64,000 nt of DNA from Membranipora membranacea (lineage: Eukaryota; Bryozoa; Gymnolaemata; Cheilostomatida; Membraniporidae): positions 5,456,001 to 5,520,000 of the forward strand of contig OU612073.1 of NCBI GenBank assembly GCA_914767715.1, in the 5' to 3' direction. The position numbers were made by a program, and so were the translations under genes. Of this stretch, positions 12,258 through 60,654 are shown piece after piece. Each line of letters starts with the position of its first letter. The first letter of the stretch is position 1. The notes beneath the pieces were generated by a model. That model was given only the letters and a program-made list of their open reading frames with translations, did no database searches and was not told where the DNA came from.

Positions 12258-12954
12258 AATGGGGAGTAAACTGTTCTCATTCTGGAGCCATACTAATAGA
12301 TGGTAAATACATTAATATTTGAGTGTTGGCTATGTGTTGTCAGTCCAGAAAGGTTATTTCTGCAACCGCCAATGGCAAGAAAATAGAGTATAAAAGCAGA
12401 AACATCTACAACCAATTATATCTGTTGCTGGGAAATTGGGATATCTGGCTCCCTCTGGCATACCTATCAAAGACAGGTGATGTCAGAGGATATTGGCCAA
12501 CAATAAAGCTGCCCCTTGGCAACCTCTACAGAAGGTTGCTGGCTAAACCTTGCTGGCTGGGATGATCCATACTTGATGTGTTTTACTTGTCTTATTTAGG
12601 ATCTAGAGCAAATTTAGCTTATTCATAAGGTGTCTTATCTTGATACATCAGTTTTTTAATTTTTTTGGGATCAACTAAGATATTCATGCGATGAACTCGA
12701 AGAGGGAGTTCATTGGTTCATGACTCCTTGCTAACACCAGAGCGCTTTTCTGGAAGACTCTCAAAAATCTGAGCACAGCTTGTGCTAAACTCGAAAAGGT
12801 GATATATCACCTTAAATATATTTTCGTGATGATTATGTTAACTTGTCTTAGAGGCAATGAGTTGGCACAGTATGACTGTGGCCTGTTGACCTGGTATCAC
12901 ACCTATAATGGAGCTATTTTCTTTTAATGATACAGATTTCGGAGGTGCAAAACC
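12258..12954. other. Upstream region of the ankyrin-like gene (copy A)
   Basis: No gene was identified. A splice acceptor-like TTTTAATGATACAG ends at about 12937, just before the start codon, so a 5' non-coding exon further upstream is likely. An 80-codon frame at 12323-12565 is not supported by splice sites or family resemblance. Confidence 0.5.
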
Positions 12955-15403
12955 ATGATGAATCCAGACCCAATCTTTGGTTTTGCTGAAGAAGATGAGG
13001 ATTTTGGAGGTGAAAACGAGCAGACCTCAGATGACAGCGGATATGAAACTAGAGAGATAAACTCAGACATTGATGACAACCAAGCCCAACGGCAGCAGCA
13101 GCAGTTCCAACCAGGTGGTGAATTGCATCAACTCCCTGAAAATGGTGATGACAATAATGTGCCTGAGGACAATAGGATGTTTGATAATGAGGAACAAAAC
13201 AATGACAGTGGCTATGAAACTGGGGAAGTTTCGCAAGACAATTTGTTTGGACCTGAAGACAGAGCGGGTGATTCTGGAGATGGTGGCGATAGCCCTGAGG
13301 AGAATGATGACAACAATGCACAGGGGGATGAGATGATGTCTGAAGATGAGGGGAGAAGTGATGAAGACTTTCAAGTTGAAATTTTCGGCTTTTTTGGCGA
13401 CAACGAAGACTTCTTTGATCAGTTAGAGAGAAGCACTGATGACAGTGGATATGGAACCGGAATGACTCAGTCAGACTCAGATCAGCTGTCTGATCATCCA
13501 CCACCACCACCTGGAGATCCAGAAGATCGACCATCTCAAGTAGACAATGAGGGAGGAGCTGAGTGGGATCCACCTGATCCAAACAGAGGCAATTATCCTA
13601 ATAACTATGGAATTAATCCTGTCCAGAGGATAGATGAGCCACGAAATCATCAACATCAGTCACACATTGCTGACGCTGACGCAGCTTCTACCTCCACAGC
13701 CAGTTCACCTCACATACGATTAGTCCATAACCGGGTTTTAAGACCGAGACCAGCAGATATGGACTGTTACTCCTCCTACCCAGCTTCAGAAGAATCATTA
13801 GTATCACAAACTACATCCCAACTCCCTGAGTCAGTGATAGACTTTCTACTGTTAAACAGCAGAGACCGCATGAAATTGTGTGGTGAGTTGATATTAAATT
13901 TAACCTAAGGCCAGGTAAAAGTAAAAATAAAAGCAGTGGCAATATTAGGTGTAACAACATGGTTAATCAATTAATCTATACACGTTCTTTGGGAAAATTT
14001 GAATATGGACACTCAAATGGGAATTGTGTTTTGTGCAATAAGTAGTTTTGCTTCTATATCAGCTACTTTCAATCCTCAGTGGCGCAGCAAGTTAACAGTT
14101 AGTTCATGTAATAGAAACATTTAATACGGTTGATTGATGTATAGTTTTGTGATGCCCTTTTGTTTGGTTGTAGATTGGCTGAGATGTGAATGGGACAGTA
14201 ATTCTGTTCTTCACAGACTCGCAAGTGAAGACAATCATCAACAGATGGGAGAGTTGATCTTAGTATTTGCAGCAATCGACCAACTGCCCTTGCTTCAAGA
14301 AAGAATTACCCAGTCTGTGAACGATGAGGGAAAAACTCCATTAGACCTCTTGATGAATGAAGGTATTTTCTAAATAATTTTTTTTTCAAAATCATCTGTA
14401 CACGTCTAAAAACAACGAGACACTGAACTCTATTGAGAAAATTCCCACAGCTGGTGTTGTAGAATCAAGTCCAAACAATCAAGGAATTATCTCCTCAGTA
14501 AAATAATCATAGGTACACAAGATACTAAATGTACAATGTTACACGGTAAAAAGACAACTCAGACACTCACTTACAATCAAGTTATGCTTCTATTCAGGCA
14601 TTCAAAACTTGATTACTGTTTAATTAATAGAATGTTTCCGCCTGTTGGAAAAAGTCTTCAGAAGAGATAAAGAGGGAAACACTCTCCTGCATCGGCATGC
14701 TGTGCGTGATGAAATTTATCTGATGGATGATTTGTTCAGCGATGTGAGATATGGTTCACTGATTAGGAAGGCAGCTTGTGCCCTCCCCAACAATGACAGT
14801 AGAACAGCGCTAGACCTAGCTGAGTCATTCACTATGAAGAGGCTGATACAAACTGGGAAATTTGTAACAATGAGCATAAATATTTATGCTGTAATGCTGG
14901 GCCCCCGGCTTGATCGGGACCTGCGGGAGCTGCATGAGCGGGAGCTGCGGGAGCTGCATGAGCAGGAGCAGCGGGTGCTGCGGGAGAAGCATGAGCGGGA
15001 GCTGCGGGAGCTGCAGGTGCAGCGGGAGCTGCAGGTGCAGGTACCATCTATATCATTTCTATTAATACTACTTTTTAATATTCATATGCTGGAGATGGAA
15101 TGGCCTGAGCTGGAGCTGCGGGAGCTGCATGGTCAGGAGCAGCGGGTGCTGTGGGAGCTGCATGAGCGGGAGCTGCGGGAGCTGCGGGAGTTGCAGGAGC
15201 AGCGGGAGCTAGAGCGATTGGAGCAGAAGCGGAGGAGTGTAGCCAAATTTAGCTTCCTAGCCTTCACAGACAGTTTACATCTTGCAGCCTGTTTGGCATT
15301 ATTGACTTTGTTCGCCTGGTCTGGTGATCTGTGCAACAAAGACTCTGTCTCATTAAGTGTAGTTGTGCTGCAGCAACAAGCAATCCAAACATTATCTCTT
15401 TGA
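12955..15403 (+). CDS. Acidic DSGY-motif, ankyrin-like, coiled-coil protein (copy A)
   Basis: Three exons, 12955-13882, 14174-14362 and 14631-15403, join in frame to 629 codons. The start is the first of two ATGs with A at -3. Residues 1-310 are acidic and disordered, with DSGYET at 27 and 84 and DSGYGT at 163, plus an internal repeat (IFGF...ED.DF...DDSGY). A conserved patch near 290-310 ([20 protein letters not shown]) leads into ankyrin-like repeats ([50 protein letters not shown]). A Glu/Leu/Arg-rich coiled coil of RELRELHE units follows, then a hydrophobic tail segment ([15 protein letters not shown]). DSG motifs before ankyrin repeats recall IkB proteins, whose DSGxxS is the beta-TrCP degron; that link is inference. 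Whether the AT-rich islands in the coiled coil are coding or small introns is unsettled. Confidence 0.75.
14918..15215 (+). repeat. Coding GGAGCTGCGGGAGCTGCAT minisatellite (copy A)
   Basis: GC-rich tandem units of 12-24 bp built from GAGCTGCGG and GAGCTGCAT encode REL/HEREL heptad-like repeats. They are broken by an AT-rich island at about 15041-15095 that encodes a hydrophobic segment (SFLLILLFNIHML). Copy B (47282-47715) has a longer array with different unit order. Confidence 0.9.
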
Positions 15404-19195: not shown

Positions 19196-19638
19196 CTAGG
19201 AAAGCAAAAAACAACCACTGTTCATATCAAAGCTTTGCCATTGCAATGAACAAAAAAAGTGCGAGAATCCAGGGTCTAAGAGGGTCTAGAGTATGTTTTC
19301 TCCCCTGACACGGATTCACATTTAAATGATGATCCGCTACAGTATAACAGTAAGCCTAGCCCGTGCTTACCTAGGACAGTTACAAGGCTACAAGGCTGCT
19401 CTACTTACACTAGAAATGATCAAATAACAGTGTTGGACAACGGTAGCGTAGTCAAAGATATTTTGGTGTTAACCTGTAACAGGGGAGACAACATACTCTA
19501 GACCTTTCTACACCCTGGATTTTCGCACATTAAATTAGGTTACATCATTCAATGTTCTTGTTCGAAAAAATGTACTTTTTTTGTTCATTGCAATGGCAAA
19601 GCTATGATATGAACAGTGGTTGTTTCTTGCTTTCCTAG
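19196..19638. repeat. Long inverted repeat, arms ~112 and ~159 bp (copy A)
   Basis: The left arm 19196-19307 (starting CTAGGAAAGCAAAAAACAAC) is the reverse complement of the right arm 19480-19638 (ending TTGTTTCTTGCTTTCCTAG) at about 90% identity. The right arm has about 50 bp extra in its middle. The spacer of about 170 bp has no gene. It may be an old long-TIR MITE; as RNA it would fold into a long hairpin. Confidence 0.85.
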
Positions 19639-20478
19639 GCACTATAAGATCCTGTTAATGGGAAAAGCGCAATTCATAGATGAATAGGATATTTTTGCTT
19701 TCTTTTTTGAGAAAAGTGTTGTTTTCCTTATTGTGAGTGACTGTTTTTCTCGATCAAATCTCACATCAGCTGTCAAAAATTGAATTTGTTTTTGGAATAA
19801 ATTCAATTTTCCTCTGTTTTTCTCTTTTGTCAACTTCTTTCTTCTGTATTCCATTGAGATGACTGATCTAAGTAACGGGTCGCTTACTGTCATCCTCTGT
19901 CAGCTGTAATGAGCAGTTTAAAATGCTCTGAGCAGATATTACTTTCTCTGCTGTCGAAATTTGTTCATAATTGTGCGCAGTTATAGTCATCTACCAAGAT
20001 GTCTGCCAAAATAGCTACGCCTACAGATTGCATCATCCTATTGCATGATCACTTTTAGGTATTTATCAAGAACTTTATTAGGTAGACAAAACTTGACAGC
20101 GTAAGTCAAAAATATATCGCTGCTGAGAGATCATGGGGATATCTATTGGATGGTAAGTCATAAATGATATTATTTTGGTAGTTCAAAAATCTAACTCTTG
20201 GGCGGATATAATCATGTCTAGGTTAATCGGAGGTTATCTTATATATGCGCAGCAAACCTTTCGTGCAAATTGGTTTTTGGATTTTATGTTGTTTGGTGGT
20301 GAAATTCCCCATAGAAGATAATACAGCAATTTTCAAAATCCTCTCTGCTCATTTATCTTGTTTAACTTTCAGGACATCATTCCTCCTGACTGCGGTTTTA
20401 CTGTTTTACGTGGAACTACCGACCGTTACATCTAAAGACATATCTCTGAAGTCAGAGAGAGTGATTGATGAGCTACTC

Positions 20479-20643
20479 AAGAAAAACTTGGAGCAGGACA
20501 GAAAACTAGAAACAGTTACCGCCGATCTGAAAGCTACCAGAGAGTTACTTGGGAAAGCTACTGCTGATCAGAAAGCTACCAGAGAGTTACTTGGGAAAGC
20601 TACTGCTGATCAGAAAGCTACCAGAGAGTTACTTGGGAAAGCT
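20479..20643 (+). repeat. 42-bp coding repeat in the collagen coiled coil (3 units in A)
   Basis: Units encoding AD(L/Q)KATRELLGKAT (14 residues, two heptads) occur three times here and once in copy B (54421-54465). The difference is exactly 84 bp, so the frame and heptad register are kept. Confidence 0.95.
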
Positions 20644-20652
20644 GTGATTGCC

Positions 20653-21489
20653 GTGAGTTATCTTACAACTTTTAAGTGTAAGGTGTGGAAATGATATATT
20701 GACCCCTTAAATGTTGACATTACTCTCTGATCTCACTGTGACCACAGACTAAACCATTTAAGGCCAATAACGTCACTGATCACGGATATACTACTGAATA
20801 TATATCTCTGATCAATAGAGAGTGAGCTGATTCACTTAGCACAAGTACCATCACAGGATTCGGTTACAACCCCAGTTAAATTCTACTAATTAGGGGCTGG
20901 TACAGGTAGGGTACTGATTTAAATTGACTGTTATGATCAGAAATACAAATGATAATAGTGTAGTCTCGATGTCAGTGTTGCCAATAACCCTAAAATGTAC
21001 GGCGTATCAAAGATGTGGCATTGGTAGGATGGAGGATGTGGGATGCAAGTGCATGTCTCCAAGTGGTGAATAGCGGGCTTGCTTATTAGCGCCACAAACT
21101 CATTCTTGTCTTTGTGATGATGGAATGGGGCAAACGGTTCCCATGCATGCTATTCACTGTAAGGCGATTGGTGCCACAGGAGTTGTAGTTTTGAGTCCCA
21201 TTTGGGGATCTTTCATAATTGATTGCCCAAGCCCCCAGCACCCTCAGGTGAATATTTCTCATGTGTTTGATAGTGGAATCACTGGAAACTCCGAAAGAAT
21301 GCTGTCTGTACTCTGTACCCCAAACTGTAGTCTTTTGGTGTGTCTGTTGATGTCAGATTTAACTGATGTAAATCAATATCCTACGCTACAGCACGTAGTT
21401 ATTGTCCAAAATTGATGTCATAAACCACAGTGGATGTAGCTTCAGCTCATCAAATTCAAAGAACAAACGTATATAATTTCTACATTTAG
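20653..21489. other. Collagen intron 2 with a low-divergence patch
   Basis: The intron is 837 bp. Between about 20962 and 21585 the two copies differ at about one position, less than the roughly 1.5% norm. A 96-codon frame at 21125-21415 is identical in both copies, but it has no splice context tying it to the collagen gene and no family resemblance that I recognise. Confidence 0.4.
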
Positions 21490-24363
21490 TTAAGATTGAT
21501 CTCGAGTGCAGATACAAAACAGAGTGCTTCATCAGATGTTGGTGAGGATGAGCATGTGATAAGACGTAGGTCGGCTCCAGATTCAGACGACTCTCACTAT
21601 GATATCCACAGCCTATCATTAGATGGTAAGAGATCAGTTTTTAGTCCGTGAGTCTTTATATACAGATATGTCTGATACCCGCCTGTGTTGAGGATTACTC
21701 TTAAATGTCAGCTTTCGAAAACTGTTCATAGGGCTGATTCAGATGAGAATAAAGCTTTTAATTGTATACGTGAACAAGAGTGCTCAAATTTAGCGAGAAT
21801 GCGGTTTTATTAACTCTTAAAATCAATTTAAGTTTAAGGCTGCATAGCTTAAAGTAAAAAATTCTTCATGGGTTTACCTGTTTTGGACTTTCAATTTAAA
21901 TGACATAGAGCCTTGAAAGAATGAAAAAAAACGTTTACCTAGACCAGGCCTAAACTTTGTTTGTAAACGTGAAGTGATGATCCGAAAAAATTCGCTCATC
22001 AGAATAAAAACACTATATGGGGTCTTGCTCATAAATCTGTTATAATGGTTACAGAAATTATACCTCTTATATGCTCCATGTGTAAAGATGGTAAAGATGG
22101 TGTCAACGGGCGAGACGGTCGTGATGGAAAAGATGGAAAAGATGGAGTCAACGGAAAAGATGGAAAAGATGGAATCAACGGAAGAGATGGAATCAACGGA
22201 AAGGACGGAAAAGACGGAATCAATGGAATTAGTGGAAAAGATGGTAAGCCGTTCAGTAAATCTGGCTTCACACAGAAAAGGCTAACAACCTATGCTTACC
22301 ACTCATACACCTTCATTCTTTTATCACATTTCAGAGTTGGTGTTTTAAGCTAGATCAAGTTTGGCCTTAGTTGATTGCATTTGGAGTTTCGCCTTAGTTG
22401 ATTGCATTTGGAGTTTCTAGAAGAGTGAGAGCAACTCTAATGTTAGGAAAATTAGATTAATCTTGATTTAGGAGAGCGTACCAAATCTTGTCAGATACTG
22501 AACCAAAACCAGATCTTGCACTTGCTTGCCCCACTGCACAAAAAGTAAGCATATTGTTCCTGATTCAGGAGATCTTTTTTCTGGTTCTGCTTTCAAATTT
22601 ACACGCATATTATGCCATATCCCATGTGTTTTGTCCTAGTGGAACTGTTATGGAATAAAGCTCCGTAAGGACTCTTTTGCTTGAACTTCTAGAAACACCA
22701 CACTAATATAATCCTAGGGCCAGGAGATGGCTCTGTTGGTTAGAGTGTTGTGGTCTAATCATTTCAGTAGGTAAAATTTCCTTGCCAGGAAACGCGTCGA
22801 AAGTCTTTTCAAGGCCCAACCCATTAAACATCACTATGTTCTCACTGAAATTTGTATTTTTAGGGAGAGATGGATTGAGAGGCTCACCCAGTAATGATGG
22901 AGATGATGGAAACCCCGGACAGCAAGGACCGCCTGGACAACAGGGAGCCTCAGGTTATGCCACAGATGGTCAACCTGGTAGAAATGGAACACCTGGTCTT
23001 TCTGGAATGAGAGGACAGCCCGGAGTTGGAGGCTCACCTGGAGTGACAGGACCACCCGGAGTTGCAGGCTCACCTGGAGTAACAGGATCACCTGGCACAC
23101 CTGGTAATCATGGATAAGCTGGTACACAAGGCTCACCCGGACCAGCAGGAAGGCCTGGTAACTCTTCAAATGCAGGCGCGGTCTACACAAGATGGGGGAG
23201 AACCTCATGTGAAAGTGACGCTACACTGCTGTATCAAGGTTGGTAGAATTTTCATTTTTTCCTTTTATTTTAAGTAGAGGTGTAGATTATATGAATTAAT
23301 GGACAATCAGGTTTATTTCGACCCATTACTTGGAATTATTGTGTCTTTGATACTTTTACACTTTTATACTGAATGTATATTATATGGATAATTGCATTAC
23401 TGTACTTTAGCCTGCTGATGCATAAGTGAGGGAAACTCCATATGGTAAATGCATATTTGTATTTTTCACATCACAAAGTCATACTATAGGTATACTACAC
23501 ACATGGCCTGTCCGTATAGAATTTACGATTGAGTTAGTTTGTTTACAAGTGTTGTGTGTCCTGTGTGTATTATTTGTGAAAAATCTTGGGAATCCCAGGT
23601 GGGTTGGCCCACTGGAAAATATCAACAAATGAGGTCATAGTGAGTTAATTAGGGAAAAGACAGAGTTGAATCTGCAAGCAATAATGACAACAAATTTATG
23701 GCCGATCCAGATAGTGTCTTGCTATTCGCCCTATCAATCACAATGTGTCAAAAATTGATCATCTAAACCAACAAATTATGCAATGTCAGACATTAAGGAT
23801 TATGTTAATACTAACTAGAGACCACTGGTTAATTACCTAACCTAACTAAACTGGATAATACAGCGAGAGAGGGCATATGCGTTTTTTTATAATAATGTTT
23901 CCTTGTTCCTGTTATAATTTAAAGCCGTGATCAAGACTATTAAGCCCATGATCCATATAGTCCGTTACTTTCACTGGTTTTGTAGGTTTTGCTGCTGGAG
24001 GCGACACTGGTCATCAAGGAGGAGGTACGAACTATCAATGCCTCCATCTAAACCCAGAGTATAACTCTTACTACACGAGTAGTGGAGACTTCAGTGCCAT
24101 ATCTGGTGTTGAGTATGAGTCTAGAAACTATGGAATATTTCCCAGTGCAGCTCATGACCAGAATGTACCGTGTGCACGCTGTTACACACAGAGATCTGCT
24201 GTAGTGATGATACCTTCTAGAAGAAGCTGTCCCTCTGGATGGACAAAAGAATATGAAGGTGAGCCATTGGCACAATCTAACTATGAAAAGATGGTGGAAT
24301 ACTCGTTCCTTCACACATGAAGATAATGATTGCAAATAAAGCTGTATAAATAAATATACATGT

Positions 24364-24384
24364 ATATATATATATATATATATT
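24364..24384 (+). repeat. (AT)n microsatellite in collagen intron 6 (copy A)
   Basis: About ten AT dinucleotides. The array is not retained in copy B, where this intron is shorter and diverged. Confidence 0.9.
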
Positions 24385-24478
24385 TATGGATACACATTGG
24401 AACAATTAAAACTCCTGCTCTTCCATTTTGGGCTACATATACTTTCTTCATGTTCTTACACATGAACTCATATACAAT

Positions 24479-24528
24479 TAGCCTGTCTTGACAAGCTTTG
24501 TTCCAACAAAGCTTGTCAAGACAGGCTA
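24479..24528. repeat. Perfect 24-bp-arm palindrome in collagen intron 6 (copy A only)
   Basis: The arm TAGCCTGTCTTGACAAGCTT continues with TGTT. It is followed by a CC loop and its exact reverse complement (24505-24528). Copy B lacks it. It lies 29 bp upstream of the exon 7 boundary, so a transcript hairpin could crowd the 3' splice site. Confidence 0.95.
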
Positions 24529-24768
24529 TCTTACAATGTGCTGTGCGTGGTTTCAGGTTATTTGATGACTACCCACGGTAGAGAATTACACCCGATGACA
24601 TTCGAATGCATCGACCAAAATCCAGAGTACATAGCAGGACACAGTGCTGACACTAACGGAGTTAACCTTTACTTCGTAATACCAGATTGTAGTGGCCCAA
24701 GAACAATCGGTCACTGCCCTCCTTATGCCGGTAACAAACAGCTCACCTGTGTTGTCTGCTCTAAATAA

Positions 24769-27172
24769 GTGACTGTCAGCGTGTCAATTATAGTTTCCTC
24801 CCACATCAAGTTCAATACAATTTTGAGTCTCCCATTCTCTTCTGGTAAACTTGCTGCTGCTATGGGTGAACGACTTCAGGTGCAAGCAAATTATTGTTTT
24901 CACCTTTTCTATGCGAGCTAAGTCAAATGAAGCTAGTGAAGCACATGGACTGTTATTACTATGCTCTTGATGTCAAAATAATAATATGTAGTGGATCACT
25001 ATCACTATCTTTACACTAACTTTCTTTATTATCACCTTCACCTTCGAGTTTTCTTAACAACTGATTGATACATAGAGCCACTTCTATGCTTCCAAAATAT
25101 TAATACTTTATCGTACTCCGAACAGTTGAACTTCTTGTCACTTTACCGCCAGTAAATCAGAAGAACAATTCTTTATAAGTTTACTACTGATGTTACTCAT
25201 TTCAGCAGCAATACAGTATGTATTTCTATACAGCTTGAGTCAATTTACTAATACATTAGTTATCAATGCAAAAACTACACAAGAGAAGTTCTTCACAAAA
25301 AAAAAGGTATGATGCTGTTGACAGCCATCTTGAAGGCTACTTGAGAACATAATCAATATTACCATAAGTATTTGGTTACTATAATGCTCCTGATAGTGTC
25401 TTCTGAGGATTGACCCTCGTACCATACTCTGTAACCGCTGCTCAGCCCTTCAATGGTTGAAATGACAAGGCCGCACAAGTGAAATAATTGTACAATTTTA
25501 CAATTAATTTGTTGTTGTTTGTTGCAGTTTAATTTTGTTTATACCAAACACCAACAAAGCCTCACATTAATTGTCCGTACCATAACCTAGAGCAAGTTTG
25601 GTCTTATTTGTCTGCCTTTTTTGGCACTCCTGTTCTATTGGTAACCTACCGGCAGCTCAAAGGAGGAGCAACTCCGTCTCCATAAACAACTCAAACAAAA
25701 TCTGATCTAGCCAAGACAAGCACATAAAATCATCAGCATGTGTTAGTCCTGCATGAAATTGATATCTAAAATTAATATGGGATATAATCGATGATATAGC
25801 CCAGGAATTGTAATGAAATGTAGTACTAGTCAGTGAGACTGCTGCTTGTAGGAAGACCCCAACAGCTGATTGATTGATACTCAGCTCACTTTGATCTTAT
25901 TGCTTATTAAGGTCAGAAATATTAGGACAAGGTTGTTATAAACTTACGATTTAAAAAAAGGGATAAATATGTAAAACTATCAAGAGTAGTCCTCTCTTTT
26001 ACCATGAGGGTAAAACTCTTTTCCACCTCCACATCAAAACAAGTCATTGGTATAATATTATTCTTATTAAGGCAATAGAAATGGTTATGATGAGTCTAAG
26101 TGCACTAAATCTTGCCTGGTTGTTGGTTGTCACATTCCTTTTTCAAACACAGGTGGCTGTTGATGATGGGATGCCACTACCTGTAGCTGCGCCTTTGGGC
26201 AAAGTTGGAGTTTGAGTTTGAGTTATGCTATGAAGGTTTATAATTTCGTTACTGTTAGAACATTTCCCTTGTTGCATACTTACAATTTTAGAAATCAATT
26301 GTTCTGATTATCTTTTTCGTCATCTTAATTGAAAGTTTTTGTTTTTCCCTTTTTTTATTTCTTGGAAGGCTGATTTTGTAAAACATTCTCATCGAATGAA
26401 AATTAGGCCAATAAAGTGAGAAAAAAAAATCATGCTCTCAAAATTCTTCATATAAGCCGGCGTGGTGCGTGTAATTGATTTGGGTAGTGGTATATACAAA
26501 TTGATGTAATTTTATCACAGTTGTGAATGCGTAAGTCAGCATTTTTGTTTTTTTAATACTTTATTGGCATAATTTTCAATCTCAAAGTATGATTTACAAT
26601 ATTAGCCCTGAAAAGAAAAAGAAAAAAAAAAACATCAATAGTAGATTTACAGAAAAACTATTATCATGTCATCTGGGAAAAATAATGTTTAGAAGAATGA
26701 ATTTTGAATAAACTGACGGCCTTAGTGGCATGCAAGATTGAAGGTAATCTGTTATAACAGGATGCTTACCTGAGTAACTTTGTATTACAGATTACAACTA
26801 TATAATTGTTCCATATTTAGGCTCAGTAGATAACGCTTTCTATTCAGAGTTCTTGTTTATGTGTGTTTGTTTGTCTCCAAGTGTCATAGTTGTCTGCTTT
26901 TTATACCTACAGCAAAGAGTTCTAGCTGTATAATCATACATGGCTTATAGACTTTGTCACTTTATTCACTACTTAACATATTGATAATGATTTGTATATA
27001 TTAAATAAGCTTTTCTCAATAAAGTGGTGATGAAGCTTCTGAAACTGTGGTCTTAACTAATTGATTATCATCCTCAGGCATTCCCAGATGGATGGAAAGA
27101 CCTTTGCGTGCACATAGCAATGAATTCGTATTACTGATGCTTGATCGATGTGAATAAGCTCATTGATTAGAT
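24769..27172. other. Intergenic spacer after the collagen gene (copy A)
   Basis: No gene is supported. Divergence from copy B stays high to about 24930 and again over about 25730-26000, and is near zero between (for example 24950-25020). About 230 bp (26158-26388) and about 80 bp (26439-26520) are absent from copy B. From about 26785 the sequence is an older paralogue of 15650 onward. Confidence 0.55.
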
Positions 27173-29291: not shown

Positions 29292-30382
29292 AGAAGTATG
29301 GGACTGTATAAGTGTTGTTATAAGTCCTCATGAGATTTAGACATATACAAATCCATAGTCTGAGCCCCCCCAAGACTTTTGCCCCCCCCCCGGCCGGCGG
29401 TCCCCCGCCGGGGGAAATCCTGTGTTCTAAAATATCTACCACATATTAGATTCAATCCGGCCTCATTAATGTTCCTGCCTTTTTGTCTCATTTACGCATG
29501 TCGTGGTACAGTCAATGACATGATGATCTCAAACTGTACTTAGCCATAGAAGTGACAAGTGTAACTGTGTCATCATAATATGATAATAACTTCATAAAAT
29601 AATCAATGATTTTATGTCAATTAATGCGCAGCTCAGTTGAGCTTTGAGCTGATGATGCTGTGGGAATTTATAATCACAAGCTTTGCATACTAACGACCTG
29701 TGAAGTCTACAGACGCTGTCGGTGTTCTCATTTCAGACTGAGGAAAGAAGCAAAGCTGAAGAAGAGGTCTAAATAGGATTTATTTCTACTGCTGACAAAA
29801 GCATTGGATTTTCTTGTACTGGAAAATTGAGAACATTTTTGTGAGATTGTCTACCTGCCTACTATAGAAAGTTTACAACTGTGATGTTGAGATATCAGCT
29901 TTATATTTTTTTCTGATACTAGACGCAAAGGAGGCCTACTTGGGACAGTGGATATATTTATCATTCCTTTATAAAGTAAGTGGTAATATCCCATTTCTGC
30001 TGCTCGTATTGTCAGGACTCCTATTGCTTGAAATATAATTCTAACAGCTTTAATTTTCCAACTCGTGTATATTTTCCAAACATCAAATTTTCTCTGAGAC
30101 TCGAGTTTTTTTGTATTTTCCACCTTCGTATTTTGTGTCGGTTAAATACCCAAAGAGGAGCAGAGCAGACCATTCACAAGATATAAAGTTGAATATATTG
30201 ACAGATATATCTGGTGCAGAGTTTGATTGCAAGGAACCTCAAAATACCAAAAAATCAGCCATGAATACAATCAAAATAATACACAAAATATACTCAAAAG
30301 ATCAAACCATCTACATTTGCTAACGCAATACGCATCCATCACATTGTATTGCCCAGACCTTTGTTTCTGGATACCTTGTAGA
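29292..30382. other. Upstream region of the CUB gene (copy B gene)
   Basis: It holds a C-run next to GGCCGGCGG (29375-29411) and no supported gene. About 30240-30382, immediately before the CUB start codon, differs markedly from the matching 63690-63832, including several short indels, although the exon that follows is identical. Confidence 0.5.
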
Positions 30383-52750: not shown

Positions 52751-53546
52751 CTAGGAAAGCAAAAAACAACCACTGTTCATATCAAAGCTTTGCCATTGCC
52801 ATGAACAAAAAAAGTGCGAGAATCCAGGGTCTAGGAGGGTCTAGAGTATGTTATCTCCCCGGTCACGGATTCATATTTAAATTATGATCCACTAACAGTA
52901 TAACAGTAAGCCTAGCCCGTGCTTACCTAGGACAGTTACAAGGCTACTCTACTTACTCTAGAAATTATCAAAAAACAGTGTTGGACAACAGTAGCGTAGT
53001 CAAAGATATTTTGGTGTTAGCCTGTAACAGGGGAGACAACATACTCTAGACCAGGGGTGCCCAACCTTTTCATTGAGGGGGCCGCATCCACATATTGCAA
53101 TTTCCCTGGGGGCCCGCAACCTCGCCATAAATCAAACATTCATATATGGGTGTGCAGTATTTTCATCTCTGCAGGGGAGAATTTATTTATTGGAGCTCAC
53201 TCATATGCAATGGTTGGGGAATTCCAAAATACTGTGTCTAGATGTAGAGCGTTCCTTATTATTGTACAAATGAGGAATGTAATAACTATAGGGGTGAAAA
53301 TTGTTTTTGCAACTACACAATTTTCTCAGACGGGTTGGGGGCCGCATCAAATTGGGTCGGGGGCCGTATGCGGCCGCTGGTCCACTCGTTGGGCAGCCCT
53401 GCTCTAGACCCTTCTAGACCCTGGATTTTCGCACATTAAATTAGGTTACATCATTCAATAATGTTCTAGTGCGAAAAAATATACTTTTTTGTTCATTGCA
53501 ATGGCAAAGTTTTGATATGAACAGTGGTTGTTTCTTGCTTTCCTAG
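52751..53546. repeat. Long inverted repeat with a hAT MITE in its right arm (copy B)
   Basis: The left arm 52751-52860 and the right arm 53028-53546 correspond to 19196-19638. The right arm is split by the 350-bp hAT insertion. Confidence 0.85.
53052..53401. mobile_element. hAT MITE, 350 bp (copy B only)
   Basis: Ends CAGGGGTGCCCAAC and GTTGGGCAGCCCTG are flanked by the 8-bp duplication CTCTAGAC (53044-53051, 53402-53409). Copy A has the empty site at about 19495-19502. Same family as 27173-27524, in the opposite orientation. Confidence 0.93.
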
Positions 53547-54038
53547 ACACTTTAAGATCCTGTTAAGGGGGAAAGTGCAATTCATAGATGTACAGGATAT
53601 TTTTGCTTTCTTCCCTGAGAAAAGTGTTGTTTTCCTGATTGTGAGTGGCTGTTTCACTCCATCAAATCTCACATCAGCTGTCAAAAACTGAATTTGTTTT
53701 TGGCAGAAATTCACTTTGCCACTGTTTTTCTCTTTTGTCAACTTTTTTTTCTGCATTCCATTGAGATGACTGATCTAAGTAACGGGTAGCTAGCTGTCAC
53801 CCTCTGTCAGCTGTTATCAGCAATTTAAATGCTCTGAGCAGATATTACTTTCTCTGCTGCCGAAATTTGTTCATAATTGTGCGCAGGTATAGTCATCTAC
53901 CGAGATGTCTGCCAAAATAGCTACGCCTACAGATTGCATCATCCTATTGGATGATCACTTTTAATTATTTATCAAGAACTTTATTAGGTTGACAAAACTT
54001 GACAGCGCAAGTCAAAAATATATCGCTGCTGAGAAATC

Positions 54039-57000
54039 ATGGGGATATCTATTGGATGGTAAGTCATAAATGATATTATTTTGGTAGTTCAAAAATCTAA
54101 CTCTTGAGCGGATATAATCATGTCTAGGTTAATCGGAGGTTATCTTATATATGCGCAGCAAATCTTTCGCGCAAATTGGTTTTTGGACTTTATGTTGTTT
54201 GGTGGTGAAATTCCCCATAGAAGATAATACAGCAATTTTCAGAATCCTCTCTGCTCATTTATCTTGTTTAACTTTCAGGACATCATTCCTCCTGACTGCG
54301 GTTTTGCTGTTTTACGTGGAACTACCGACCGTTACATCTAAAGACATATCTCTGAAGTCAGAGAGAGTGATTGATGAGCTACTCAAGAAAAACTTCGAGC
54401 AGGACAGAAAACTAGAAACAGTTACCGCCGATCTGAAAGCTACCAGAGAGTTACTTGGGAAAGCTGTGATTGCCGTGAGTTATCTTACAACTTTTAAGTG
54501 TAAGGTGTGGAAATGATATATTGACCCCTTAAATGTTGAAATTACTCTCTGATCTCACTGTGACCACAGACTAGACCATTTAAGGCCAACAACGTCACTG
54601 ATCACGTGATATACTATTGAATATATATCTCTGATCAATAGAGAGTGAGCTGATTCACTTAGCACAAGTACCATCACAGGATTCGGTTACAACCCCAGTT
54701 AAATTCTACTAATTAGGGGCTGGTACACGTAGGGTACTGATTTAAATTGACTGTTATGATCAGAAATACAAATGATAATAGTGCAGTCTCGATGTCAGTG
54801 TTGCCAATAACCCTAAAATGTACGGCGTATCAAAGATGTGGCATTGGTAGGATGGAGGATGTGGGATGCAAGTGCATGTCTCCAAGTGGTGAATAGCGGG
54901 CTTGCTTATTAGCGCCACAAACTCATTCTTGTCTTTGTGATGATGGAATGGGGCAAACGGTTCCCATGCATGCTATTCACTGTAAGGCGATTGGTGCCAC
55001 AGGAGTTGTAGTTTTGAGTCCCATTTGGGGATCTTTCATAATTGATTGCCCAAGCCCCCAGCACCCTCAGGTGAATATTTCTCATGTGTTTGATAGTGGA
55101 ATCACTGGAAACTCCGAAAGAATGCTGTCTGTACTCTGTACCCCAAACTGTAGTCTTTTGGTGTGTCTGTTGATGTCAGATTTAACTGATGTAAATCAAT
55201 ATCCTACACTACAGCACGTAGTTATTGTCCAAAATTGATGTCATAAACCACAGTGGATGTAGCTTCAGCTCATCAAATTCAAAGAACAAACGTATATAAT
55301 TTCTACATTTAGTTAAGATTGATCTCGAGTGCAGATACAAAACAGAGTGCTTCATCAGATGTTGGTGAGGATGAGCATGTGATAAGACGTAGGTCGGCTC
55401 CAGATTCACACGACTCTCACTATGATATCCACAGCCTATCATTAGGTGGTAAGAGATCAATTTTTAGTCCGTGAGTCTTTATATCCAGATATGTCTGATA
55501 CCCGGCTGTGTCGAGGATTACTCTTAAATGTCAGCTTTCGAAAACTGTTCATAGGGCTGATTCAGATGAGAATAAGAGTGCTCAAATTTAGCGAGAATGC
55601 GGTTTTATTAACTCTTAAAATCAATTTAAGTTTAAGGCTGCATAGCTTAAAGTAAAAAATTCTTCATGGGTTTACCTGTTTTGGACTTTCAATTTAAATG
55701 ACATGAAGCCTTGAAATAATGAGAAAAAACGTTTACCTAGACCAGGCCTAAACTTTGTTTTTCGGGTAAACGTGAAGTGCTGATCCGAAAAAATTCTCTC
55801 GTTAGAAAAAAACACTATATGGGGTCTTGCTCACAAATCTGTTATAATGGTTACAGAAATTATACCTCTTATAAGCTCCATGTGTAAAGATGGTAAAGAT
55901 GGTGTCAGCGGGCGAGACGGTCGTGATGGAAAAGATGGAGTCAACGGAAAAGATGGAAAAGACGGAATCAATGGAATTAATGGAAAAGATGGTAAGCCGT
56001 TCAGTAAATCTGGCTTCACACAGAAAAGGCTAACAACCTATGCTTACCACTGATACACCTTCATTCTTTTATCATTTCAGAGTTGGTGTTTTAAGCTAGT
56101 TTGGCCTTAGTTGATTGCATTTGGGGTTTCTAGAAGAGTGAGAGCAACTCTAATGTTAGGAAAATTAGATTAATCTTGATTTAGGAGAGCGTACCAAATC
56201 TTGTCAGATACTGAACCAAAACCAGATCTTGCACTTGCTTGCCCCACTGCACAAAAAGTAAGCATATTGTTCCTGATTCAGGAGATCTTTTTTCTGGTTC
56301 TGCTTTCAAATTTACACGCATATGCCATATCCCATGTGTTTTGTCCTAGTGGAACTGTTATGGAATAAAGCTCCGAAAGGACTCTTTTGCTTGAACTTCT
56401 AGAAACACCACACTAATATAATCCTAGGACCAGGAGATGGCTCTGTTGGTTAGAGTGTTGTGGTCTGTGGTAAGAGTGTCAAAGGTTGTGTGTTTATTTC
56501 CCAAGCTGCCATCAAGTGAGTTTGGTTGGCCCCAGGTGTGCTCCAATCTGCTTCAAAATAGAGAGTCTTGCCCTTAAGTGCTGCCTATGCTTAGGGATGT
56601 GGCCTGTGATAAGACCACATGATTCCAAACAATTTTTTTAATCATTTCAGTAGGTGAAATTTCCTCGCCAGGAAACGCGCAGAAAGTCTTTTCAAGGCCC
56701 AACCCATTAAACATCACTATGTTCTCACTGGAATTTGTATTTTTAGGGAGAGATGGATTGCAAGGCTCACCCGGTAATGATGGAGATGATGGAAACCCCG
56801 GACAGCAAGGACCGCCTGGACAACAGGGAGCCCCAGGTAATGCCACAGATGGTCAACCTGGTAGAAATGGAACACCTGGTCTTTCTGGAATGAGAGGACA
56901 GCCCGGAGTTGGAGGCTCACCTGGAGTGACAGGACCACCCGGAGTTGCAGGCTCACCTGGAGTAGCAGGATCACCTGGCACACCTGGTAATCATGGATTA

Positions 57001-58558
57001 GCTGGTACACAAGGCTCACCCGGACCAGCAGGAAGGCCTGGTAACTCTTCAAATGCAGGCGCGGTCTACACAAGATGGGGGAGAACCTCATGTGAAAGTG
57101 ATGCTACACTGCTGTATCAAGGTTGGTAGAATTTTCATTTTTTCCTTTTATTTTAAGTAGAGGTGTAGATTATATGAATTAATGGACAATCAGGTTTATT
57201 TCGACCCATTACTTGGAATTATTGTGTCTTTGATACTTTTACACTTTTATACTGAATGTATATCAGATAATTGCATTACTGTACTTTAGCCTGCTGATGC
57301 ACAAGTGAGGGAAACTCCATATGGTAGATGCATATTTGTATTTTTCACATCACAAAGTCATACTATAGGTATACACACATGGCCTGTCCGTATAGAATTT
57401 ACGATTGAGTTAGTTTGTTTACAAGAGTTGTGGGTCCTGTGTGGATTATTTGTGAAAAATCTTGGGAATCCCAGGTGGGTTGGCCCACTGGAAAAAATCA
57501 ACAAATGAGGTCATAGTGAGTTAATTAGGGAAAAGACAGAGTTGAATCTGCAAGCAATAATGACAACAAATTTATGGCCGATCCAGATAGTGTCTTGCTA
57601 ATCGCCCTATCAATCACAATGTGTCAAAAATTGATCATCTAAACCAACAAATCATGCAATATCAGATTATGTTAATACTAACTAGGGACCACTGGTTAAT
57701 GACCTCACCTAACTGAACTGAATAATACAGCGAGAGAGGACATACACGTTTTATATTAGTGTTTCCTTGTTCCTGTTATAATTTTAAGCAGTCATCAAAA
57801 CAATGATGATATGATAATCATTTTTATTATAAGCCCATGATCCACATAGTCCATTATTTTGTAGGTTTTGCTGCTGGAGGCAACACTGATAATACAGGAG
57901 GAGGTACAAACTACCAGTGCCTTCATCTTCAGCCAGAGTATAACTCTTACTACACGGGAAGTGGAGCCTTCAGTATTATATCTGGTGCTGAGTATGAGTC
58001 TTTTAGAAACTATGGAATATTCCTCAGTGCAGCTCATGACCAGAATGTACCATGTGCACGCTGCTATACCCAGAGATCTGCCGTAGTGATGATACCTTCA
58101 AGAAGAACCTGTCCCTCTGGATGGGCAAAGGAATATGAAGGTGAGTCATTGGCACAATCTAACTATGAAAAGATGGGGAAATCTTTGACCCTTCTCACAT
58201 GAAGATGATGAATGCAAATTAAACTGTATATGTTTATATTCATATATGTACACACTGCAACAAATAAAACTCCAGCTCTCCTTTTTGGGTTACTTTCTTC
58301 ATTTTCTTACACATGAACTCTTACAGTGTACTGGGTATGGTTTCAGGTTATTTGATGACTGCCCACCATTCCCATGCCCATCCGACCACATACGAATGCA
58401 TCGACAAAAATCCAGAATACATATCAGGACACAGTGCTGACACTGACGGAGCATGCTTATACTTCGTAACACCAGATTGTGACGGCCCAGGAACCATCGG
58501 ACATTGCCCTCCATATGCCAGTAACAAACAGCTTACCTGTGTCGTCTGCTCAAAATAA
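54039..58558 (+). CDS. Membrane/secreted collagen with Cys-rich C-terminal head, intact (copy B)
   Basis: Exons: 54039-54058, 54279-54474, 55313-55448, 55857-55991, 56747-57121, 57865-58140, 58347-58558; total 1350 nt, 449 aa. Residues 8-24 are a hydrophobic signal anchor or signal peptide. Residues 28-72 form a coiled coil (one KATRELLGK unit) and 73-117 an acidic linker with RRRSAPD, a possible basic cleavage site. Residues 120-162 are proline-free Gly-X-Y (GKDG, GVNG, GINGI), and 163-270 proline-rich Gly-X-Y with one GNATDG interruption. The Cys-rich head is about 288-449. The head carries CARCYTQRS, MIPSRRTCPSGW, EYEGYLM, HCPPY and the final LTCVVCSK, hallmarks of 'short-chain collagen C4-like' proteins. 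A trimeric extracellular stalk-and-head protein is expected. The exon 4 start could alternatively be 32 bp downstream in the same phase. Exons 6-7 differ from copy A by about 11-16%. Confidence 0.85.
55992..56746. other. Collagen intron 4 with tRNA-SINE-like fragment (copy B)
   Basis: About 56431-56515 reads like a degenerate tRNA head (GGCTCTGTTGGTTAGAGTG as A box, GGTTGTGTGTTTATTTCCC as a decayed B box). Bases of about 56467-56639 are missing in copy A, so A retains only the 5' part of this SINE-like sequence. Confidence 0.5.
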
Positions 58559-60654
58559 GTGACTGTCAGCTTATGAAGAAAAGTTTCCTCCCATATCAAG
58601 TTCAATCCAATTCGTCTGCATTTTGAGTCTCCCATTCTCTCCTGGTAAACTTGCTGCAGCTATGGGTGAACGACTCCAGATGCAAGCAAATTGTTTTCAT
58701 CTTTTCTATACGAGCTAAGTCCAGTGAAGCTAGTGAAGCACATGGACTGTTATTACTATGCTCTTGATGTCAAAATAATAATATGTAGTGGATCACTATC
58801 ACTATCTTTACACTAACTTTCTTTATTATCACCTTCACCTTCGAGTTTTCTTAACAACTGATTGATACATAGAGCCACATCTATGCTTCCAAAATATTAA
58901 TATTTTATCGTATCTCCAAACAGTTGAGCTTCTTGTCACTTTACCACCAGTAAATCAGAAGAACAATTCTTTATTTACTACTGATGTTAATCATTTCAGC
59001 AGCAATATAGTATGTATTTCTATACAGCTTGAGTCAATTTACTAATACATTAGTTATCAATGTGAAAACTACACAGGAGAAGTTCTTCACCAAAAAAAAG
59101 TATGATGCTGTTGACAGCCATCTTGAAGGCTACTTGAGAACATAATCAATATTACAATAAGTATTTGGTTACTATAATGCTCCTGATAGTGTCTTCTGAG
59201 GATTGACCCTCGTACCATACTCTGTGACCGCTGCTCAGCCCTTCAGTGGTTGAAATGACAAGGCCGCACAAGTGAAATAATTGTACAATTTTACAATTAA
59301 TTTGTTGTTGTTTGTTGCAGTTTAAATTTGTTTATACCAAACACCAACAAAGCCTCACATTAATCGTCCGTACCATAACCTAGAGCAAGTTTGGTCTTAT
59401 TTGTCTGCCTTTTTTGGCACTCCTGTTCTATTGGTAACCTACCAGCAGCTCAAAGGAGGAGAAACTCCGTCTCCATATACAACTCTATCAGATAAAATCT
59501 TATCTAACCAAGACAAACACATAAAATCATCAGCATGTGTTAGTCCTGCATAAAATTGATATCAAAACTAATGCGGGATATGATTGTTGATGTAACCCAG
59601 GAGTTGTAATGAAATTAAGTACTACTCAGTGAGACTGCTGCTACAAGAAAGACCCCATTAATTGATTGATACTCAGTTCAGCTCACTTGGATCTTATTGC
59701 TTAACAAGGCGAGAAATATTGGGGCAATGTGCTTATAATATTACAATTTTAGAAAGGATAAATAAGCCAGACTATCAAGAGTAGTCCTCTCTTTCATCAT
59801 GAGAGAATAACTCTTTTCCACCTACGCATCAAAATAAGTCATTGGTATAATATTATTCTTATTAAGGCAATAGAAATGGTTATGATGAGTCTAAGTGCAC
59901 TAAATCTTGCCTGGTTGTTGGTTGTCACATTCCTTTTTCCAACACATTCTCATCGAATGAAAATTAGGCCAATAAAGTGAGAAAAAAAAATCATGCTCTC
60001 AGTTGTGAATGCGTAAGTCAGCATTTTTGTTTTTTTAATACTTTATTGGCATAATTTTAAATCTCAAAGTATGATTTACAATATTAGCCCTGAAAAGAAA
60101 AAGAAAAAAAAATACATCAATAGTAGATTTACAGAAAAACTATTATCATGTCATCTGGGAAAAATAATGTTTAGAAGAATGAATTTTGAATAAACTGACG
60201 GCCTTAGCGGCATGCAAGATTGAAGGTAATCTGTTATAACAGGATGCTTACCTGAGTAACTTTGTATTACAGATTACAACTATATAATTGTTCCATATTT
60301 AGGCTCAGTAGATAACGCTTTCTATTCAGAGTTCTTGTTTATGTGTGTTTGTTTGTCTCCAAGTGTCATAGTTGTCTGCTTTTTATACCTACAGCAAAGA
60401 GTTCTAGCTGTATAATCATACATGGCTTATAGACTTTGTCACTTTATTCACTACTTGACATATTGATAATGATTTGTATATATTAAATAAGCTTTTCTCA
60501 ATAAAGTGGTGATGAAGCTTCTGAAACTGTGGTCTTAACTAATTGATTATCATCCTCAGGCATTCCCATATGGATGGAAAGACCTTTGCGTGCACATAGC
60601 AATGAATTCGTATTACTGATGCTTGATCGATGTGAATAAGCTCATTGATTAGAT
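58559..60654. other. Intergenic spacer after the collagen gene (copy B)
   Basis: No gene is supported. It matches 24769-27172 with two deletions relative to A and a strongly diverged patch at about 59540-59790. Confidence 0.55.

Follow-up and report, generated by a model that had tools for sequence, protein, structure and literature searches.

An old, sharply bounded divergent tract in a single member of a young tandem array of spongin short-chain collagen genes in the bryozoan Membranipora membranacea

How can two exons of a gene be far more divergent than their surroundings when the copies that carry them belong to a single young tandem array? The question arises from a 64,000-nucleotide stretch of the genome of the bryozoan Membranipora membranacea (contig 9:5456001-5520000, chromosome 9; hereafter the window), which contains units of a tandem array carrying a spongin short-chain collagen gene. 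A preliminary description of the window had placed a peak of divergence on the two exons encoding the head of this collagen, and had attributed it either to gene conversion from another paralogue or to long-held diversity in a recognition domain.

The array is young, with units of about 33-35 kb and copies about 1.5% apart. A self-comparison of 164 kb revealed, in addition to the two gene copies of the window (A and B, Table 1), a third gene copy (C) upstream and a partial further unit downstream; older fragments of the unit, more strongly diverged, are found a little further upstream, beyond copy C, a sign that this place once held an older set of copies. Outside the patches described below, A and B differ at 1.49% of aligned sites (two-state HMM), as the earlier estimate of about 1.5% had anticipated. 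Genome searches covered the primary assembly, namely 339,339,785 bases in 18 contigs; the available extracts of the genome note (PMC10290214) give 339,374,674 bases in 21 scaffolds. Further open frames of the array unit were observed at 12931-13908 and 14624-15403, corresponding to an acidic low-complexity protein and to a frame that looks ankyrin-like by eye, with a Glu/Arg-rich repeat sitting in a stretch whose length depends on the copy.

Table 1. Positions, in the window, of the gene copies, exons, head loops and divergent patches discussed in the text
Feature	Position	Strand	Remark
Copy A, spongin short-chain collagen gene	20133..24768	+	seven putative exons; exon limits deduced from frames and splice motifs
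Copy B of the gene	54039..58558	+	exon comparison with A and C
Copy A, collagen exon 5	22865..23241	+	Gly-to-Ser change within a Gly-X-Y triplet
Copy A, in-frame TAA in exon 5	23115..23117	+	sense codon in B and C
Copy A, exon 6 (first head exon)	23987..24261	+	placed from frames and splice motifs
Copy A, exon 7 (second head exon, stop codon included)	24558..24768	+	placed from frames and splice motifs
Fast loop 1 of the head	24000..24017	+	exon 6 codons 5-10
Fast loop 2 of the head	24571..24588	+	exon 7 codons 5-10; equivalent place in the second subdomain
Divergent head patch, copy A	23783..24931	+	covers collagen exons 6 and 7, intron and flanks; HMM and three-way alignment
Equivalent of the head patch, copy B	57659..58728	+	background divergence from copy C
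Second deep A-only patch	25663..26043	.	downstream of the gene; 60/378 differ from B; 57 private to A
Third deep A-only patch	30227..30380	.	outside the gene; 29/141 differ from B; 23 private to A

The gene encodes a spongin short-chain collagen whose head resembles the NC1 domain of collagen IV. In the joined protein of copy B, the Pfam Collagen model (E 1.7e-19) is followed by a head of about 185 residues. As described in the available text of PMC5395295, spongin short-chain collagens combine a short collagen part with a collagen-IV-NC1-like head devoid of HSQ motif and featuring ten conserved cysteines, seven common to collagen IV and three of their own. In our alignment of 57 homologues, ten cysteine columns were invariant or at least 90% conserved, and a test of the head for the NC1 fold of collagen IV was positive; ten cysteines were counted in the heads of A and C and eleven in that of B, and inspection by eye of the three translated heads found no HSQ motif. 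No Pfam model matched the head in copy B or in six homologues, and a PDB sequence-profile search based on 21 homologues was also negative. Among named proteins, the best relatives come from bryozoans, several of them being called short-chain collagen C4-like. A JGI protein, P0001, looks by eye almost the same as the head exons L037/L038, and its contig may originate from this bryozoan or a close one.

A genome search with exon 6 returned at least 150 matches (225 candidates) at 33-100% identity, some of which carry stops or are split in two. Tandem sets of heads occur on several chromosomes, e.g. at chromosome 2:24.08-24.32 Mb and chromosome 7:4.78-4.89 Mb, and chromosome 2 harbors near-identical head copies. 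Judged from these matches, the head family is very large in M. membranacea, the figure of at least 150 being a count of exon matches and not of working genes. None of the papers available to us unites bryozoans, collagen and gene family expansion.

Within the array, two exons vary in length through in-frame differences in repeat number, namely the coiled-coil exon 2 (difference at 20529-20612; exon of 281, 197 and 239 bases in A, B and C, respectively) and the collagen exon 4 (difference at 22131-22184; exon of 187, 133 and 169 bases). Copy A carries the nonsense codon listed in Table 1, absent from the preliminary description, and is probably not functional. The exon-5 splice acceptor of copy C (L013:8382-8383) shows AC in place of the AG of A and B, and no disabling change was seen in the exons of copy B that were compared.

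Sliding windows and a two-state HMM both recovered the divergence peak between A and B, which excludes uniform divergence. In the head patch, 138 of 1037 aligned columns differ (13.3%), and the mismatches are clustered far above chance, the densest 1000 columns containing 136 of them against a maximum of 49 in 500 permutations. The counts first put forward were close to ours: exon 6 differs at 30 of 273 positions plus a 3-base gap (about 31 and a 3-base indel in about 273 bp had been announced), exon 7 at 38 of 212 when counted from 24557 (about 35 in 212 bp), and the peak includes about 160 bp of 3' flank (about 150 bp). Its abrupt end was also recovered, both ends being sharp in the HMM; the left end, previously set at 23650, is moved by the HMM to nearer 23783. 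Outside the patch, divergence amounts to 9/535 in the preceding part of intron 5 and 17/726 in the 3' flank beyond. The edges of the patch, with 18/183 in its intron 5 part and 16/160 in its 3' flank part, are shallower than its middle, so that more than one event or source may have contributed.

Two repeats lie in this region. The left end of the patch falls within a dispersed repeat (23700-23886) found at many sites of the genome with up to 92% identity, and intron 6 of copy A contains a perfect 23-base inverted repeat with a 2-base loop (24480-24527), which sits in a 61-base stretch missing from copies B and C.

Which copy is the odd one emerges from a three-way alignment of A, B and C, used to assign private sites. 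In the head patch, A has 127 private sites, B 6 and C 7 (1032 columns), and the corresponding numbers outside the four largest patches are 94, 64 and 67 (9991 columns); B and C hence diverge at the ordinary rate within the patch, and the excess resides in A alone. Between A and B, dS is raised in both head exons (exon 6, 0.29; exon 7, 0.40), where dN/dS is 0.26 and 0.42, respectively. The three pieces of intron 6 give JC values of 0.17-0.21, and those portions of the patch that lie in intron 5 and in the 3' flank about 0.11. Since silent, intron and flank sites are all raised and the ends are sharp, the tract has an older ancestry and did not undergo faster protein change: the common ancestor of the patch middle is roughly ten times older than that of its surroundings.

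These values dispose of the idea that the head merely evolved faster in A, through positive selection or through constraint lost after the stop codon. Exon 5 of copy A does show 6.5 amino-acid-changing against 1.5 silent differences from B, as such an acceleration would predict. However, silent sites, intron and flank are raised as much as the exons, and relaxed constraint cannot give a tenfold silent and intron divergence in a 1.15-kb tract. Faster head evolution is thereby refuted as the main cause and is left with hardly any probability, and positive selection as the origin of the patch is ruled out by the parallel rise of silent and intron sites.

The peak on the head exons is real, as first described, but it does not stand alone. 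The HMM delimited 11 patches in the A/B comparison, the head patch being the longest, and two others are deep and confined to A (Table 1). Both equal or exceed the head patch in depth, with a JC value of 0.18 for the one at 25663-26043, and a genome search with either of them matched the three array copies only (3/3 candidates scored in each case). Just upstream of the gene, a patch at 19556-19923 of A (53465-53829 of B) is mainly B-only, with 35/365 differences, 28/365 of them private to B.

Where the tract came from was examined by a tree of exons 6 and 7 built on 12 of 16 head sets, and by searches of the primary assembly. With both exons, copy A is sister to B+C (support 95/96) on a long branch, and the exons taken singly give 86/90 and 69/82 for the same grouping. 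In a search of the primary assembly with 23700-24930 of A that scored 40 of 424 candidates, array copies alone aligned over nearly the entire length, at 80-83% identity, and matches to other head genes were broken up, none exceeding about 400 bases; the closest of them, over exon 6, reaches 87% over 311 bases, and no near-identical donor for the head patch came to light. The identity of exon 6 between A and B is 89%. A search of the primary assembly with the exon-7 region of A (15 of 15 candidates scored) likewise disclosed no closer donor: array copies are 82% identical and the best outside sequences 80% over 240/245 bases or 83% over 178.

A different, distant head gene located elsewhere in the genome could in principle have been the donor: the very large family would offer many candidates, and the 87% outside match of exon 6 is near the identity of this exon to B. 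Nevertheless, no outside match among the 40/424 candidates scored nears identity over the tract, A groups with B+C, and the second and third deep patches lack any outside match, so that we regard a distant donor as highly improbable. The preliminary proposal thus holds in part. The greater age of the patch, whether through conversion or through long-held diversity, is supported by the excess in one copy, the raised silent and non-coding sites, the abrupt ends and the background divergence of B and C, but conversion from another known paralogue is not supported, because the genome search for such a paralogue yielded no closer sequence in the primary assembly (40/424 candidates scored) and the head of A groups with B+C.

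An assembly artefact, i.e. falsely duplicated haplotypes or a chimeric join, was also considered, since copies about 1.5% apart could be allelic. Nonetheless, three head copies together with partial units are more than two haplotypes can give, HiFi reads are usually longer than the 1.15-kb patch, and the old patch would need explaining even if two of the copies were alleles. The available extracts of the genome note state on the one hand that the assembly is not fully phased and on the other that it was built with HiFi reads, hifiasm, purge_dups, Hi-C and manual curation (PMC10290214). Altogether, we consider an artefact very unlikely.

In a diversifying recognition domain, dN/dS would be expected to exceed 1 at sites of the binding surface. 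Codon counts were made on 12 of 16 head sets and site models on 11 of 16 (L017, L020, L026, L027a and L028 left out), stop codons, together with codons 1-4 of L024b exon 7, being treated as missing. Two equivalent loops of the head change fast (Table 1), and the site test places its favored selected sites in both. With both exons and 11 rows, the LRT was 18.07, a value as high being reached in 0 of 100 simulations; it was 10.35 without A (reached in 6/100 simulations), 16.74 without the array, and 7.78 (p 0.02) with the eight rows left after dropping L019, L022 and L024b. Taken alone, exon 6 gave p 0.07 (0.02-0.13 across runs) and exon 7 p 0.056 (0.056-1 across runs). The exon-7 loop has a dS of its own of 1.04, so its own dN/dS is 0.71. 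Between B and C, 4 of the 10 changed residues fall within the loops, which make up 12 of 161 codons (p 0.0045, a figure that is not independent since this alignment of the family had already served to choose the loops). Fifteen other pairs, built from 30 of 40 head loci, gave a loop dN/dS of 0.74, with loops faster than the rest in 10/15; in these pairs, codons 30-35 of exon 6 were faster than the exon-6 loop. Positive selection in the loops is hence suggestive, not proven, and the two fast loops leave room for a recognition role of the family.

A peak aimed at a recognition domain, in the form initially put forward, is not supported: there are two other deep patches beyond the limits of the gene, A is interrupted by a nonsense codon and C has lost its exon-5 acceptor AG, the latter two making an active recognition pair unlikely. 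The same observations bear on long-held balanced diversity, by which A-like and B-like heads would be old alleles selected on a recognition or assembly surface, both captured by unequal crossing over. A depth about ten times that of the array and two fast loops where the site test favors selected sites would fit this scenario. In contrast, deep patches outside the gene, the stop codon in A, the acceptor lost in C and a head dN/dS of 0.26-0.42 between A and B argue against it, and we hold it to be unlikely.

The likely explanation, in our opinion, is that copy A is a recombination mosaic containing pieces of an older sister lineage of the same locus. A 1.15-kb tract over the two head exons and two shorter, similarly deep tracts would derive from this lineage, which may have been an old allele or else a diverged tandem copy, now lost or absent from the assembly, and gene conversion or double crossing over would have set these old tracts beside young sequence. 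We infer both that recombination made the mosaic and that a single source provided all three tracts. Because no donor has been identified, the direction of transfer is not proven, and the same appearance would result if homogenization of the array had spared the old tracts of A. Against the mosaic, some outside heads match exon 7 of A almost as well as B and C do (82%), and tree support per exon is modest.

The type of mechanism is already known, and the well-bounded old patch in one copy of a young array is real. A third copy reveals which copy is odd, and the mean divergence of such copies would be a misleading basis for dating. The heads of this bryozoan, collagen-IV-like and provided with two equivalent fast loops, form a very large family that has been little described and merits a separate study. 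It is conceivable, albeit improbable, that M. membranacea turned spongin short-chain collagens into a large secreted repertoire of heads, whose twin hypervariable loops, one per subdomain, would recognize microbes or other colonies, recombination among array copies swapping whole head cassettes, one old cassette being caught in copy A. If heads did bind microbes or mark colonies, they would constitute a testable candidate recognition system in Bryozoa, a phylum for which we know of no identified recognition molecule.

Three known systems invite comparison. The gene shares with spongin short-chain collagens the short collagen part, the NC1-like head, the ten cysteines and the lack of HSQ motif, and differs from them by the very large size of the family here and by array copies with a stop (A) or a lost acceptor (C). 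Old allelic lineages are found at recognition loci such as fuhc of Botryllus and the Hydractinia complex; divergence far older than the surroundings and a secreted domain with variable loops are common to these loci and to ours, whereas here there is one assembled haplotype, patches lie outside the gene and copy A is probably not functional. Finally, the array departs from interlocus gene conversion tracts in young arrays in that no donor was found in the assembly (40/424 candidates scored for the head patch) and tracts also lie outside the gene, and it resembles them in its sharp tracts of old divergence, set on a homogeneous background and present in one copy only.
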